This document shows, one piece after another, positions 5,117 to 19,655 of a stretch of 64,000 nt of DNA (its first letter is position 1; every line of letters starts with the position of its first letter). A model generated the notes under the pieces. The model saw nothing but the letters and a program-made list of their open reading frames with translations, had not been told where the DNA came from and did not search any database. The stretch is from Maritalea porphyrae (lineage in GTDB: Bacteria > Pseudomonadota > Alphaproteobacteria > Rhizobiales > Devosiaceae), in the NCBI RefSeq assembly GCF_027213965.1, contig NZ_JAPWGX010000002.1, forward strand, positions 686,412-750,411, in the 5' to 3' direction. Position numbers and translations under genes: made by a program.

Positions 5117-5457
5117 TTATCGTCCCGTCATTGTCTTTTTAAGGTCAATTGTTCGATTGTGCCCCCACATATGGTCATCAAAAGCCCAAATTGGAAGGCT
5201 GACGAGCCATAAGCTTTTGACACCCACGGGCGCAACGCGCTGGTGGATGTTGACCCCTTGCATCAGTAAGACCGCACAAGGTAGTGGCTCGAGGTTTTCT
5301 CGATCAGTTAAACTTATTGGCTCGTGCAATAGAGGAATGGGGACTTTGAGTCAATAAAGAAGCGCGCCAAGCAAGCAATCTTGATGTGACATGGGTAGTA
5401 ATTGGGCCTAATCTGCGCCATATAAGGCAAAAGTTGACATTAGGCATAGGCACGATA
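5117..5457. other. Intergenic region between divergent ffh and dapF
   Basis: This 341-bp spacer should hold the promoters of the ffh operon and of dapF. A TTGACA lies about 25 bases before the dapF start, too close to be its only promoter element. A 70-codon minus-strand frame (5117-5329) has no family features and is probably chance. No SRP RNA core sequence was seen. Confidence 0.4.
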
Positions 5458-13423: not shown

Positions 13424-13567
13424 CTGGCAAGAGGAGAATATTTTCATTATAAAGCGCGCGAACACCTCCGTGGGGACAGAGGTGATCATTTCATGCTTTA
13501 TGATCAAAAGCACATCTAGCGCTTTTGGTCGGGGCAAGTTTGAAATTTGAATGGACAGGCAGACGCC
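13424..13567 (+). promoter_or_regulatory. Duplicated acnA-type promoter and structured leader (copy A, before acnB)
   Basis: This segment matches the acnA leader at 16833-16979. It has CTGGCA (13424-13429), an 18-bp spacer, TATAAA (13448-13453), then two hairpins. Hairpin 1 is CACCTC/GAGGTG (13463-13484) with loop CGTGGGGACA, which is identical in the acnA leader although the stems differ. Hairpin 2 is GATCAAAAGC/GCTTTTGGTC (13502-13530). A GGACAGGCAG segment near 13553-13562 matches the acnA ribosome-binding region. Spacing of every part agrees with the acnA leader within 2 nt. If active, it would give acnB a leader of about 430 nt. Confidence 0.7.
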
Positions 13568-13606
13568 GTGACAGGATCCCCTTTGAACAGCTTTTACGTC
13601 AGACAG
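13568..13606 (+). pseudogene. Remnant of the acnA 5' coding end
   Basis: A GTG here begins MTGSPLNSFYVRQ. The real acnA begins [13 protein letters not shown] at 16980, so 9 of 13 residues agree, and the DNA also agrees (TTGAACAG, CAGACAGA). Similarity stops after this and the frame ends at 13750. I read this as the broken start of an acnA copy next to ccmA, left when acnB was placed between ccmA and acnA. Chance is unlikely because the match continues directly from the matching leader. Confidence 0.7.
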
Positions 13607-13891
13607 ATTATAACGGACAGCTTTGGGCAACTTTGCGGCTTTAGTGTTGGCTCGGGTTTCAAGAGAAACCGCTCACGCATGTCCTGTGCACGTCAAAATC
13701 TACATTTTCACTGGTCTCCAAAGCTTGGTTTTTCGCGCAAAGAACCCTAGCTCTGGATTAAAGACTGTTCAAAATTTCTTGCCAGACGCAAGACGTTAAA
13801 ATATTGATGCGCTTAGTTCGCTTTCGTGGCTTCTCTCAGGAACAAGTGAGGTCGTTTTGAAAGCAATATCAGGAATGGAAGGTTGCAAACC
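13607..13891. other. Spacer between acnA remnant and acnB
   Basis: No gene or known element was recognised. The frame of the acnA remnant continues to 13750 with no family features. A GGAAGG ribosome-binding site for acnB lies at 13877-13882. No second strong promoter was seen, so acnB may depend on the promoter at 13424. Confidence 0.4.
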
Positions 13892-16684
13892 ATGGGCTTA
13901 TATACGGATTATTTTAACGAGATTGAAACTCGAAAAGCTGACGGATTGCACCCTAAGCCAATTGATGATGGTGGGTTGGTTGCAGAACTTGTTGCGCAGA
14001 TCAAAGATGAGGGCAATGAGCACCGCAAGGAAAGCTTGAACTTCTTCATTTATAACACATTGCCAGGCACGACCAGTGCGGCAGGTGTTAAAGCCAAGTT
14101 CCTAAAAGAGATCATTCTTGGACAATCTGTTGTTCAAGAGATTACGCCAGATTTTGCTTTTGAGCTTTTGTCACACATGAAGGGTGGCCCTTCGATTGAA
14201 GTGCTGTTGGATTTGGCGCTGGGTGATGACGTAGCGATTGCTGAACAAGCAGCTGACGTGTTGAAAACCCAAGTGTTCCTTTATGATGCGGATACGAGCC
14301 GCCTGAAAGAAGCTTTTGAAGCGGGCAATGTGATTGCTAAAGACATTCTTGAAAGCTATGCGAATGCGGAGTTTTTCACCAAGCTTCCCGGCGTTGAAGA
14401 AGAAATTAAAGTGGTGACTTATATTGCTGGGGAAGGCGATATTTCGACGGATTTGCTGTCACCTGGCAATCAAGCGCACTCGCGTTCAGACCGCGAATTG
14501 CACGGCAAATGCTTTATTTCGGACAAAGCACAGGCCGAAATTCAAGCGCTCAAACTCCAACACCCTGATAAGCGCGTGATGTTGATTGCGGAAAAAGGCA
14601 CCATGGGTGTTGGCTCTTCTCGCATGTCAGGCATCAACAACGCAGCATTGTGGACGGGCAAACAAGCCAGCCCCTATGTGCCCTTTGTGAACTTTGCGCC
14701 GATTGTTGCGGGCACCAATGGCATTTCGCCGATCTTTTTGACCACTGTTGGGGTTACCGGCGGTATTGGGATAGATTTGAAAAACTGGGTCAAGAAAACC
14801 GGCCCAGACGGCAAGCCGATCATCAACAATAATGGTGATGCGGTATTGGAAGAAAAATATTCCGTTGAAACCGGCACTGTGTTGACCATCAACACAAAGA
14901 AGAAAAAGCTTCTCGATGAGAATGGCGAAAAAGAGCACGCGGATATCTCATCAGCTTTGACAGCGCAAAAAGTTGAGTTCATCAAAGCTGCGGGCTCATA
15001 TGCGATTGTGTTTGGTAAAAAGCTGCAAACTTTTGCGGCTGCAACGTTGGGCATTGAGGCGCCGCTTGTTTTTGCACCAGCCAAAGAGATTTCTCACGAA
15101 GGCCAAGGCCTGACGGCGGTTGAAAAGATTTTCAACAAGAACGCGGTTGGCGTGAAAAGCAAAACACCATTGCACGCCGGTTCAGACGTCCGGGTGGAAG
15201 TGAACATTGTTGGTTCGCAAGACACAACAGGTTTGATGACCGCCCAAGAGCTTGAAGCCATGGCGGCGACCGTGATTTCACCGATTGTTGATGGGGCATA
15301 TCAATCTGGCTGTCACACCGCATCTGTGTGGGACATTAAAGCGCAAAACAATATTCCAAAGCTGATGAGCTTTATGAATAAGTTTGGTCTAATCACCGCG
15401 CGCGATCCCAAAGGCAGCTATCACGCGATGACCGATGTGATCCACAAGGTGCTCAATGACATCACTGTGGACGATTGGGCGATCATTATTGGTGGCGATT
15501 CACACACTCGTATGTCCAAAGGCGTTGCCTTTGGTGCGGACAGTGGCACGGTGGCGCTCGCGCTCGCGACAGGTGAAGCGACCATGCCAATTCCTGAATC
15601 TGTGAAGGTGACCTTTAAAGGCAAAATGGCCGACCACATGGATTTCCGTGATGTTGTGCATGCGACCCAATTGCAAATGCTAGAGCAATTTGGCGAGAAC
15701 GTTTTCCAAGGCCGCATCATCGAAGTACATATTGGTACATTGTTGGCTGACCAAGCCTTCACCTTTACCGATTGGACCGCTGAGATGAAGGCGAAAGCCT
15801 CAATCTGTATCTCACAAGACGATACATTGATTGAATCGCTTGAGATCGCCAAACACCGCATCCAAGTGATGATCGATAAGGGCATGGAAAATGAAGCCAA
15901 AACGCTGCATAGCCTGATCGCCATTGCCGACAAGCGCATTGGGGAAATCAAGTCGGGCGAAAAGCCTGCGTTGCGCCCAGACGACAATGCGAAGTACGCC
16001 GCTGAAGTTGTTGTTGACCTCGACCAAATCGTTGAGCCAATGATTGCTGACCCGGATGTGAACAATATTGAGATTTCTAAACGTTACACCCACGATACGA
16101 TCCGCCCAATCAGCTATTATGGGTCGGACAAAAAGGTTGATCTTGGGTTCGTTGGGTCATGCATGGTGCATAAGGGCGACATGAAGATCGTGGCGCAAAT
16201 GCTGCGCAATCTTGAAAAAGTAAATGGCAAGGTGGAGTTTAACGCCCCGCTTGTTGTTGCTGCGCCGACCTACAATATCATCGACGAGTTGAAGGAAGAG
16301 GGCGACTGGGAAATCTTGCAAAAGTATTCAGGCTTTGAGTTTGACGACCTTAAGCCAAAAGCCGCGGCGCGCACGGAATATGAGAACATCATGTATCTTG
16401 AGCGCCCGGGCTGTAACCTTTGCATGGGGAACCAAGAAAAAGCGGCCAAAGGCGACACGGTGCTGGCCACCTCAACCCGCCTATTCCAAGGCCGGGTAGT
16501 GGAAGACAGTGCTGAGAAAAAAGGCGAAAGCCTGCTTGCATCAACACCAATCGTCGTGCTTTCAGCAATCCTTGGGCGCACCCCAAGCCTTGATGAGTAT
16601 AAAGAAGCAGTTGAGGGTATCGACCTGACCAAATTCGCACCGCCTCAGGTGAAGCCGATCGACACAAAGTCTGTTCACTTCTAA
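13892..16684 (+). CDS. acnB: Aconitate hydratase B, Bacteroidota-like
   Basis: AcnB interconverts citrate and isocitrate in the TCA cycle using a [4Fe-4S] cluster. The 930-aa protein has the AcnB domain order: helical N-terminal domain (1-160), swivel domain with GSSRMSG, then the catalytic domains with GSQDTTG, IIGGDSHTRMSKG, GFVGSCM and PGCNLCMGN; the last two carry the cluster cysteines. From memory, the text (SLNFFIYNTLPGTTSAAG, DLLSPGNQAHSRSDRELHGK) is of the Bacteroidota AcnB type and unlike E. coli AcnB. The ATG at 13892 follows GGAAGG by 9 nt; a TTG at 13883 is less likely. The gene lies between ccmA and acnA, which are usually adjacent in this order. Transfer is inferred. Confidence 0.95.
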   Translation: MGLYTDYFNEIETRKADGLHPKPIDDGGLVAELVAQIKDEGNEHRKESLNFFIYNTLPGTTSAAGVKAKFLKEIILGQSVVQEITPDFAFELLSHMKGGPSIEVLLDLALGDDVAIAEQAADVLKTQVFLYDADTSRLKEAFEAGNVIAKDILESYANAEFFTKLPGVEEEIKVVTYIAGEGDISTDLLSPGNQAHSRSDRELHGKCFISDKAQAEIQALKLQHPDKRVMLIAEKGTMGVGSSRMSGINNAALWTGKQASPYVPFVNFAPIVAGTNGISPIFLTTVGVTGGIGIDLKNWVKKTGPDGKPIINNNGDAVLEEKYSVETGTVLTINTKKKKLLDENGEKEHADISSALTAQKVEFIKAAGSYAIVFGKKLQTFAAATLGIEAPLVFAPAKEISHEGQGLTAVEKIFNKNAVGVKSKTPLHAGSDVRVEVNIVGSQDTTGLMTAQELEAMAATVISPIVDGAYQSGCHTASVWDIKAQNNIPKLMSFMNKFGLITARDPKGSYHAMTDVIHKVLNDITVDDWAIIIGGDSHTRMSKGVAFGADSGTVALALATGEATMPIPESVKVTFKGKMADHMDFRDVVHATQLQMLEQFGENVFQGRIIEVHIGTLLADQAFTFTDWTAEMKAKASICISQDDTLIESLEIAKHRIQVMIDKGMENEAKTLHSLIAIADKRIGEIKSGEKPALRPDDNAKYAAEVVVDLDQIVEPMIADPDVNNIEISKRYTHDTIRPISYYGSDKKVDLGFVGSCMVHKGDMKIVAQMLRNLEKVNGKVEFNAPLVVAAPTYNIIDELKEEGDWEILQKYSGFEFDDLKPKAAARTEYENIMYLERPGCNLCMGNQEKAAKGDTVLATSTRLFQGRVVEDSAEKKGESLLASTPIVVLSAILGRTPSLDEYKEAVEGIDLTKFAPPQVKPIDTKSVHF

Positions 16685-16716
16685 GAGCCCTAAAGGCGCT
16701 AGAAACTAGACAAATC

Positions 16717-16748
16717 AAGCCGGTGGGGTGACCCGCCGGCTTTTTTTT
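16717..16748 (+). terminator. Rho-independent terminator of acnB
   Basis: AAGCCGG and CCGGCTT form a stem around a 12-nt loop, followed by a run of eight T. It begins 32 bp after the acnB stop. Confidence 0.9.
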
Positions 16749-16832
16749 GTGGCCAGCTGAGCATCACGTCTTCGTGTTTTTCAAAGTTTGTTCGATTTCG
16801 CTATTTTGTTGCCAAAGGGATGGAACCAAATA

Positions 16833-16979
16833 CTGGCAACAAACGTTTCGTTTTACTATATGATGTTTGAACGTTGCCGTGGGGACAGTGACGTTTCTCC
16901 ATCGGCTGTTGGTCGAAAGCGTCCCCTTATTGCTTTTGATCGACACCAGTTTGAACCATCTGGATAGGCAGGCAGCAAA
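16833..16979 (+). promoter_or_regulatory. acnA promoter and two-hairpin structured leader (copy B)
   Basis: CTGGCA (16833-16838), an 18-bp spacer and TATATG (16857-16862) form the likely promoter. The message would begin near the first hairpin. Hairpin 1 (16870-16895) has the stem AACGTTGC/GTGACGTT and loop CGTGGGGACA. Hairpin 2 has a 10-bp stem, GGTCGAAAGC/GCTTTTGATC (16911-16941), extendable to 14 bp (16907-16945), and an 11-nt loop that starts with GTCCCC. That hexamer is complementary to GGGGAC in loop 1, so the loops could kiss. A second copy precedes acnB at 13424. The ligand or binding partner is unknown. Confidence 0.75.
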
Positions 16980-19655
16980 TTGACACACACTTCATTGAAC
17001 AGTTTCAACGCCAGACAGACTTTGGTTGTTGGCGACAAATCTTACACTTATTATTCGCTCCCAGAAGCAGAGAAAAACGGGCTTTCGGGTATCTCGAAAC
17101 TTCCAATTTCCCTCAAAGTGGTTTTGGAAAATCTATTGCGCTTTGAAGATGGCCGCACGGTCACCAAAGATGATATTGTGGCCTGCGCTGATTGGCTAAA
17201 AACCAAATCTTCTGCGCAGGAAATTTCCTTTCGTCCTGCGCGTGTGCTGATGCAGGATTTTACGGGTGTGCCCGCAGTTGTTGATTTGGCCGCGATGCGC
17301 GACGCCACCGCAAAGCTTGGCGCTGACCCACAAAAGATCAACCCCCAGGTGCCGGTGGATTTGGTGATTGACCACTCGGTGATGGTTGATTTCTTTGGTA
17401 CTGGGCAAGCTTTTACCCAAAATGTGGAGCGTGAATATCAACGCAATGGCGAACGCTATGAGTTTTTGCGCTGGGGCCAAGAGGCGTTTGATAATTTCCG
17501 CGTGGTGCCGCCCGGAACGGGCATTTGCCACCAGGTGAATCTTGAGTATTTGGCCCAAACGGTTTGGACGAAAGAAGCCAACGGCGAAACCATTGCATAT
17601 CCGGATACGCTTGTGGGTACAGATAGCCACACCACTATGATCAACGGTTTGGCCGTTTTAGGCTGGGGCGTTGGGGGCATTGAAGCTGAAGCTGCGATGC
17701 TGGGACAGCCGATCTCCATGCTGATCCCTGAAGTGATCGGTTTTAAACTTGAAGGCAATATGCGGGACGGTATTACCGCAACCGATTTGGTGTTGCGGGT
17801 GGTTGAAATGCTGCGTGAGCGGGGCGTGGTGGGTAAATTCGTTGAGTTTTATGGCCCAGGCCTTGATAATTTGACGTTGGAAGATCAGGCAACAATTGCC
17901 AATATGGCTCCAGAATATGGGGCGACTTGCGGTTTCTTTCCGGTGGACAGCGAAACGCTCGCCTATTTGGACACTACGGGTCGTGATGGGGACCGAGTGG
18001 CTTTGGTTGAAGCTTATTCTAAAGCTCAAGGCATGTTCCGCGATGCAAATACGGTTGAGGCAACTTATACCGATGTTCTTTATCTTGATTTGGATGGTGT
18101 GGTGCCAGCGATTTCTGGGCCAAAACGCCCACAAGATCGGGTGAATTTGGATGAGGCGAAGCAAAAGTTTGCTGAAGCGCTTGCGGGCGAATATGCCAAA
18201 ACAGATGTACCAGCTGCACCGGTTGAGGGCACAGACTATTCGATCACCCATGGGGATGTGGTGATTGCGGCGATTACATCTTGCACCAATACCTCAAACC
18301 CTGCGGTTTTGGTGGCGGCTGGATTGGTGGCGCGCAAGGCGCGGGCGCTGGGGCTAGAGGTTCAACCTTGGGTCAAAACCTCTTTGGCGCCCGGATCACA
18401 AGTTGTGACCGAATATTTGACCGCTTCTGGTCTGCAAGATGATTTGGATGCGCTTGGTTTTAATCTTGTTGGATATGGCTGCACGACTTGTATTGGAAAC
18501 TCGGGGCCTTTGCCCCCTGCCATTTCAAAAGCCATTGGTGCAAAAGATTTGGTGGCTTGCTCTGTCTTATCCGGTAACCGAAACTTTGAGGGTCGCGTGA
18601 ACCCGGATGTAAAAGCGAACTATTTGGCCTCGCCGCCGTTGGTGGTTGCCTATGCGTTAGCGGGCAAAATGAGTATCGACATTACAACCGAACCCTTGGG
18701 CACGGGTAGCGATGGAAAACCGGTTTATTTAAAGGATTTGTGGCCAACGCTTGAAGAAATCTCTTCGATAGTGCGCCAGTCAGTTACGCGTGAGATGTTC
18801 ATCAAACGCTATTCCGACGTGTTTAAAGGCGATGCAGGTTGGCAAAAGATTAAGGTTGAAGGGGGAGAAACTTACAATTGGAACTCTGCTTCCACCTATG
18901 TGCAAAACCCGCCGTATTTTGAGGGGGTGAGCAAAGAAATTACACCGCAAAAAGATGTGAAATCAGCGCGGATCTTGAGCCTATTTGGCGATAGCATCAC
19001 AACTGATCATATTTCGCCAGCCGGGTCGTTTAAAGCGGATACACCAGCGGGTAAATATTTGCTGGACCGTCAAGTTGGGGTGAAAGACTTTAACTCCTAT
19101 GGGTCGCGTCGGGGTAACCATGAGATTATGATGCGCGGCACATTTGCAAATATTCGAATCAAAAACCAAATGGTGCCCGGCGTTGAAGGTGGTTTCACCA
19201 AAGACCCATCAGGTGACGTTGCCGCCATGTATGACGCGGCAATGGCCTATGCTGAAAAAGGCACCCCTTTGGTGGTTTTTGGCGGCAAGGAATATGGCAC
19301 AGGTTCTTCAAGGGATTGGGCGGCAAAAGGCACAAGACTGCTCGGCGTTCGCGCGGTGATCGTTGAGAGCTTTGAGCGTATTCATCGCTCAAACCTCGTG
19401 GGTATGGGGGTTCTTCCGTTGCAGTTTAAAGATGGTGCGAGCTGGAGTTCCTTGGGTCTAACCGGTGATGAAGAGGTGTCGATTGATGGGATTGGTGAGA
19501 TCACGCCACGATGTGACGTAATCGTTAAGGTGAAATCAGCGGATGGATCTGAAAAGAGCTTTGAAGCGCTTTGCCGGATCGATACGGAAGACGAGTTAGA
19601 TTACTTCCGAAATGGTGGTATTTTGCATTATGTCTTGCGCAATCTTGTTGCTTGA
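16980..19655 (+). CDS. acnA: Aconitate hydratase A
   Basis: AcnA is the 891-aa monomeric aconitase of the IRP1/AcnA family. It interconverts citrate and isocitrate with a [4Fe-4S] cluster. Cluster cysteines lie in SCTNTSNP and [10 protein letters not shown]. The substrate segments [37 protein letters not shown] and [15 protein letters not shown] are present. The start is probably the TTG at 16980 after AGGCAGG; a TTG at 16995 is the alternative. In Hyphomicrobiales acnA is usually directly divergent from ccmA; here acnB separates them. AcnA proteins can act as RNA-binding proteins when the cluster is lost, which makes the structured leader notable. Confidence 0.97.

Follow-up and report, generated by a model that had tools for sequence, protein, structure and literature searches.

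Two leader sequences near aconitase genes, in a 64,000-nucleotide stretch of a Maritalea genome (contig NZ_JAPWGX010000002.1, positions 686,412 to 750,411; hereafter the window), carry a hairpin whose loop, CGTGGGGACA, is identical in both copies and whose stems differ, each of them able to pair. This raises the question of what the loop is for. The original prediction saw in it a selected RNA structure that might bind a regulator or aconitase itself. The comparative analysis described here found nothing that points to aconitase binding, and the best-supported partner of the loop in the leader of acnA (aconitate hydratase A) appears to be a complementary hairpin loop in the 3' untranslated region (3'UTR) of aceA, the isocitrate lyase gene.

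Results

On rereading the sequence, the two leaders were found to share the promoter spacing that had been described for them, CTGGCA being followed after 18 nt by TATAAA in copy 1 (13424..13453, + strand) and by TATATG in copy 2 (16833..16862, + strand). A recount gave the same distances as before, namely 17 and 15 nt from hairpin to hairpin and 83 and 84 nt from hairpin 1 to the GTG or TTG codon. Hairpin 1 is formed on the + strand by CACCTC / GAGGTG in copy 1 (13463..13484; fold z-score -2.04) and by AACGTTGC / GTGACGTT in copy 2 (16870..16895; fold z-score -0.99), with support from covariation in both, and it contains the octamer GTGGGGAC at 13470-13477 and 16879-16886, respectively. Hairpin 2, called from folding and covariation in copy 1 (GATCAAAAGC / GCTTTTGGTC, 13502..13530, + strand) and from folding in copy 2 (16911..16941, + strand), differs between the copies at three stem bases and keeps its pairing through G-U, as had been noted.

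For the covariation analysis we aligned the seven acnA leaders of six Maritalea genomes (G000, G005, G017, G024, G030 and G036, with G005, G017 and G030 placed in this same genus) and used 500 column shuffles and pairings with a slid partner as controls. Over hairpins 1 and 2 together, 96.0% of 126 cells were paired versus 82.5% in the shuffles, none of which reached the observed value, and the slid controls gave 56.5% at most; double-sided cells numbered 21 versus 8.7 in the shuffles (0/500 reaching). Hairpin 1 alone was paired in 98.0% of its cells (slid controls up to 69.6%) and had seven double-sided cells versus 2.6. The heptamer GGGGACA was invariant across the seven leaders. Covariation within the genus Maritalea thus supports a selected RNA structure whose loop is fixed, and the stem swap between the two copies reads as part of a genus-wide difference. 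A long-range pairing proposed by RNAalifold (GCUUGU/ACAGGC) was left out, having no double-sided change, and inspection by eye for a pseudoknot or riboswitch disclosed no conserved downstream complement in the leaders. As a separate observation, the hairpin 2 loop is complementary to the hairpin 1 loop in copy 2 (GTCCCC, 16921-16926) and in the G036 leader L084 (GTCCC).

A gene other than acnA also has the motif. The genome contains 15 copies of GTGGGGACA (11 for a reversed-pattern control); 11 of the 15 sites fall inside open frames of at least 90 codons, and the rest are the two acnA leaders, a site that precedes acs (acetyl-CoA synthetase) by about 100 nt and one beside dnaN. All six Maritalea acs leaders carry the motif, and in each of them CACGGTGTTGTGGGGACAAC follows TTGACC-17-TAGCC, which we read as a predicted promoter. 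GGGGACA is accordingly invariant in 13 of 13 sites (seven acnA and six acs leaders, six genomes), and with these sites in register the joint stem had 12 double-sided cells versus 3.9 in shuffles (0/500 reaching). GGGGAC was missing from the six acs paralogues in Maritalea. Among other genera, GTGGGGAC was in none of 25 readable acs leaders (of 55 genomes; one further locus was cut) and GGGGACA in one, that of G011 (L246), where ACGGGGACAAGT stands 73 nt upstream of acs, a single case that may be due to chance. The intergenic GTGGGGACA beside dnaN (L114, 1501-1509) lies within a palindrome, CCCCATGTGGGG.

A search of four Maritalea genomes for the pattern TGTCCCC near a T-run gave 15 distinct sites, one of which, in G024, was located between the aceA stop codon and a strong terminator. 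As a follow-up test, the aceA region was identified by gene order in G000, G005, G017 and G030, and a hairpin loop at that location held GTCCCCAC in all four. The octamer lies between the aceA stop codon and the terminator that follows in 5/5 Maritalea genomes read, with 91-116 nt from stop codon to T-run. It occurs only at the four aceA places within 159 kb of the four fetched Maritalea regions, both strands counted, its base rate in other genera being six in 398 kb (both strands). Outside the octamer and the terminator the aceA 3'UTRs are 33-43% identical across clades, versus 100% (5/5) for the octamer, and their hairpins (z-scores -1.67 to -2.75) differ in the stems. According to the folding predictions, all eight bases of the octamer are unpaired in G000 and G005 (probability at least 0.93 per base), as are its last five, CCCAC, in G030, G017 and G024 (at least 0.94). 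Among the 116 open frames along 104 kb of the window genome, only aceA is followed by GTCCCCAC within 100 nt and only acnA is preceded by GTGGGGAC within 150 nt. The one aceA 3' end read from another genus (G060) lacked GTCCCC, and aceA was not found in the fetched stretches of G010 and G001.

The aceA hairpin loop holds GUCCCCAC, whose exact reverse complement is the acnA loop sequence GUGGGGAC; the latter also occurs close to where the acs mRNA is predicted to begin. At the level of the octamers, GTCCCCAC is fully complementary to the GTGGGGAC present in the acnA leaders of the window (both copies), M. porphyrae and G036, and in 6/6 Maritalea acs leaders. GTGGGGAC is complete in four of the seven acnA leaders and the other three keep 6-7 nt of it; with its flank, the acnA-aceA match of G024 reaches 10 pairs. 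Calculated loop-loop duplexes had energies between -13.4 and -23.9 kcal/mol, and the least stable was that of M. myrionectae acnA with six pairs. When 113 open-frame leaders in the same 104 kb were ranked by duplex energy with the aceA loop, acnA was the best (-20.1 kcal/mol). Energies for the whole leader with the whole 3'UTR carried no information, as the program takes no account of internal structure.

With respect to distribution, the expectation that the loop would be conserved in relatives held inside Maritalea and failed outside it: GGGGACA was present in 0/84 other-genus acnA leaders (inspected over roughly the last 160 nt, and taken from 84 of the 93 genomes of other genera that had an acnA match), so that the element looks genus-specific. 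Covariance models gave a similar picture. In 101 family genomes, the first one (R1; full leader, stricter filters) recovered its seven training leaders with E values of at most 4e-19, and beyond these only three matches, with E values of 0.1-0.75. The second (R2) found the seven acnA leaders plus 25 weaker matches, of which the 18 inspected all overlapped open frames; two others of these 25, both truncated, coincided with acs leaders, those of G036 and G005. The third (R3) matched its 13 training sites, by construction, and 24 weaker ones from an E value of 0.15, and all 17 of the latter that were inspected overlapped open frames. The suggestion that no described RNA family is involved was borne out by Rfam, which had no match to the leaders and nothing near the gathering score at nine leader loci, the aceA 3'UTRs of G000 and G024 and three acs loci; its only match within the window was elsewhere, to the ffh family (RF01793, 53.8 bits, 5213-5264, - strand).

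The acnA leaders of the wider family show a feature of their own. A dyad like TTGGA(A/G)-N3-TTCCAG stands just past the -10 box in 54 of 86 promoter-anchored Devosiaceae acnA leaders (e.g. L005, L090 and L092), including 38/40 in genus g15 and 11/18 in genus g11, and in 0/7 Maritalea leaders. It resembles an Irr/ICE box, and iron control of acnA by Irr in other Devosiaceae would fit such a dyad. Loss of Irr was ruled out as the reason for its absence from Maritalea, IrrA scoring above the cut-off in 61/61 genomes.

The description of the two copies as aconitase leaders needs to be qualified: both are real, and only copy 2 is a working acnA leader. Copy 1 is an acnA leader beside ccmA that the insertion of acnB has cut off. 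The order on the + strand is leader copy 1, acnB, terminator, leader copy 2 and acnA, with ccmA upstream on the other strand. The GTG at 13568, 83 nt past hairpin 1 of copy 1, begins a remnant of the acnA 5' end of about 14 codons (13568..13609, + strand, recognized by alignment with the acnA start) and not acnB, which starts near 13892. This remnant heads a short chimeric open frame (13568-13750, by eye) that continues into unrelated sequence and was left by the acnB insertion. The acnB-like aconitase (13892..16684, + strand) scored 961 bits with NF006690 (cut-off 782) and below the cut-off with TIGR00117; an intrinsic terminator identified by eye follows at 16718..16748 (+ strand), and acnA itself (16980..19655, + strand) scored 1379 bits with TIGR01341 (cut-off 945), being 89% identical to M. 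porphyrae acnA over the best segment.

The leaders of copies 1 and 2 are 58% identical to each other, while copy 1 is 78% identical to the M. porphyrae leader and copy 2 is 72% identical to that of G036, a genome in which the acnA leader adjoins ccmA (by eye). These identities and the ccmA-acnA order in G036 rule out a recent tandem duplication, and suggest that the copies derive from separate Maritalea lineages or represent an old pair. TTAAAATATTGATGCGC, contained in a probable acnB promoter region (13779..13812, + strand) recognized as shared upstream DNA and putatively assigned that role, is also found upstream of acnB in G005 and, one base shorter, in G036; acnB lies elsewhere in both genomes, and an acnB match is missing in three of the six Maritalea genomes. 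Scanning between copy 1 and acnB revealed no intrinsic terminator and no sigma-70 consensus promoter, so that read-through into acnB would be possible. The consensus scan listed a promoter neither at copy 1 nor at 13779..13812; the copy 1 promoter is called because the spacing pattern is kept in 86 of 91 acnA leaders examined, and not from that scan.

Discussion

We believe that the 3' end of the aceA mRNA, free or released as a small RNA (sRNA), probably uses its loop to pair with the acnA and acs mRNAs at their 5' ends, a reading we favor with some reserve. What can be read directly is that the acnA hairpins covary around an invariant loop, that a second gene has the motif and that aceA has a complementary loop; transcript starts, RNA pairing, sRNA release and an effect via stability are predictions built on these. 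Hairpin 1 of acnA would be a 5'-terminal target for antisense pairing, and its partner either a released sRNA or the whole aceA mRNA. Pairing would change the stability or translation of the acnA and acs mRNAs and could thereby coordinate acetate use at three steps: from acetate to acetyl-CoA, from citrate to isocitrate and from isocitrate to glyoxylate. Since the start codon follows the target only after about 85-100 nt, so that the ribosome site is distant, an effect on stability seems likelier than a ribosome block, and as to its sign we lean slightly towards repression. Copy 1, as a cut-off leader, may serve as a decoy, or transcription from it may read through into acnB, and the GTCCCC or GTCCC of hairpin 2 could possibly be a cis mimic of the aceA loop. 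The complete scheme, a genus-specific kissing circuit of the aceA tail with the acs and acnA 5' ends in which loops are locked and stems free, copy 1 is a decoy or a link to acnB and the hairpin 2 GUCCCC of the copy 2 lineage competes in cis, is a tentative construction that we regard as rather doubtful in its entirety.

Several observations weigh against the proposed pairing. The aceA site was chosen among the 15 distinct matches of one pattern search, and in G036 the aceA 3'UTR was unreadable. Bases 1 and 3 of the aceA octamer are partly paired in G030, G017 and G024 (unpaired probability 0.12-0.52), and in the acnA leaders of this M. myrionectae clade the octamer match is 6 nt (G017) or 7 nt (G030 and G024). 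Four of the 113 leaders equal or surpass the acs duplex, which was calculated separately (-17.4 kcal/mol), and a match of at least 8 nt to the 19-nt aceA loop is found in five of the 113, acnA included, one reaching 10; by length alone such a match is not rare, and the weight of the case for pairing rests on conservation. Of the five covariation measures, two fail to exceed the controls clearly: over hairpins 1 and 2, the pairs with double-sided change were nine versus 6.5 (20/500 shuffles reaching) and the pair types 22 versus 21.1 (211/500); for hairpin 1 alone the same two counts were reached by 139/500 and 309/500 shuffles, and for the joint acnA/acs stem by 201/500 and 132/500. Three of the seven leaders are closely related and the structure was derived from the same sequences, which biases the counts towards structure, and with three close relatives among six genomes the independent events are few. 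The acs hairpin is weak, z-scores of -0.49 and -0.70 for two acs hairpins not being above shuffle stability, and the acs 5' flank is conserved rather than covarying. Finally, hairpin 1 of copy 2 is the minimum-energy fold when its 33 nt are folded alone, and in 50 nt or the whole leader an alternative fold is predicted in which GCCGTGGGGA pairs with TCTCCATCGGC and buries the loop, so that the working acnA leader of the window would hide it.

Among the alternatives, the one that survives best, which we nevertheless judge unlikely, is that apo-aconitase or another RNA-binding protein reads the GGGGACA loop in the acnA and acs mRNAs and that the aceA complement is a coincidence. Hairpins bound by proteins usually combine a fixed loop with a variable stem, and the acnA loop of the M. 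myrionectae clade departs from full aceA complementarity while keeping GGGGACA. This explanation leaves unaccounted for the exact complement within a hairpin of variable stem in the aceA 3'UTR of 5/5 genomes read. As for particular proteins, CsrA is a binder of GGA loops, and it had no match in 61/61 family genomes searched (E value of 0.001 or below); the iron-responsive element (IRE) of animal mRNAs has a CAGUGN loop with a bulged C, and no IRE-like CAGUGN loop is common to the seven leaders. Bacterial aconitases can bind mRNA, as the available text on the apo-AcnB of Escherichia coli and its own 3'UTR indicates (PMC7821165).

It is considerably less probable that the octamer is the DNA site of a transcription factor at the acnA and acs starts, with the aceA site as the same site in the other orientation. 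The sites do lie just downstream of predicted -10 boxes, the acs site has a DNA dyad, GTTGTGGGGACAAC, as its core, and the different conserved dyad of other genera occupies the same place in 54/86 leaders; against this, the stems flanking the acnA site change on both sides with pairing kept, and the aceA site falls past the stop codon and before the terminator, within a hairpin whose stems vary. That hairpin 1 is a mere 5'-terminal stabilizer with no partner we find improbable to a slightly greater degree, for although it starts a few nt from the start predicted from the -10 box, and the first 34 nt of leaders fold better than shuffles (genus-balanced mean z-score -1.28, versus -0.53 and +0.29 further down), this gives no reason for the invariant loop, the acs motif or the aceA complement, and genus g15 (40 leaders) has no fold signal (mean z-score 0.10).

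If the proposed pairing of the aceA tail is true, the end of one enzyme's message would tune the mRNAs of two enzymes that act earlier in that route, and the system would show how regulatory RNA pairing arises and persists within one genus. Among the papers listed in searches of the openly licensed literature, we found neither an sRNA derived from the aceA 3'UTR that acts on acetyl-CoA synthetase or aconitase nor an acnA leader element, and the main text of a review (PMC9438474) contains neither "aceA" nor "isocitrate lyase".

Known systems share parts of this arrangement. We know of no conserved loop with a complementary partner in stem-loops of the ompA type, which hairpin 1 resembles in being placed at the very 5' end. 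In Bacillus subtilis, CitB acts on the citZ leader. As with CitB and AcnB, the control proposed for Maritalea would be post-transcriptional and exerted on an mRNA of the tricarboxylic acid (TCA) cycle through a stem-loop; unlike it, that of AcnB and CitB is protein-based, apo-AcnB binding the 3'UTR of its own mRNA according to the text available (PMC7821165). The same source, as far as accessible, ascribes to the Corynebacterium glutamicum aceA 3'UTR a role in the RNase E/G processing of aceA itself; an isocitrate lyase mRNA with a functional 3'UTR is also what we propose for Maritalea, whereas no trans target is named there for the C. glutamicum one. Stabilizing 5' stem-loops of the ompA type are referenced in the accessible part of PMC3997798. 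The closest parallel is SdhX (RybD), an sRNA derived from the 3' end of sdhCDAB-sucABCD in Salmonella and E. coli, where, in the available text, this released end of a TCA-cycle mRNA represses the acetate kinase gene ackA (PMC6393394, PMC9438474). The Maritalea system differs in its host gene (aceA), its targets (acs and acnA) and its bacterial class, in having the seed in a hairpin loop and in a target that, for acnA, is itself a hairpin loop, placed where the mRNA is predicted to begin and a long way from the start codon; moreover, the release of the aceA tail as an sRNA is a proposal. Both have, at the 3' end of a central-carbon mRNA linked to acetate metabolism, a short conserved seed in variable surroundings, and the aceA 3'UTR shares with SdhX the position of that seed between the stop codon and a Rho-independent terminator as well as conserved complementary sites in its candidate targets.

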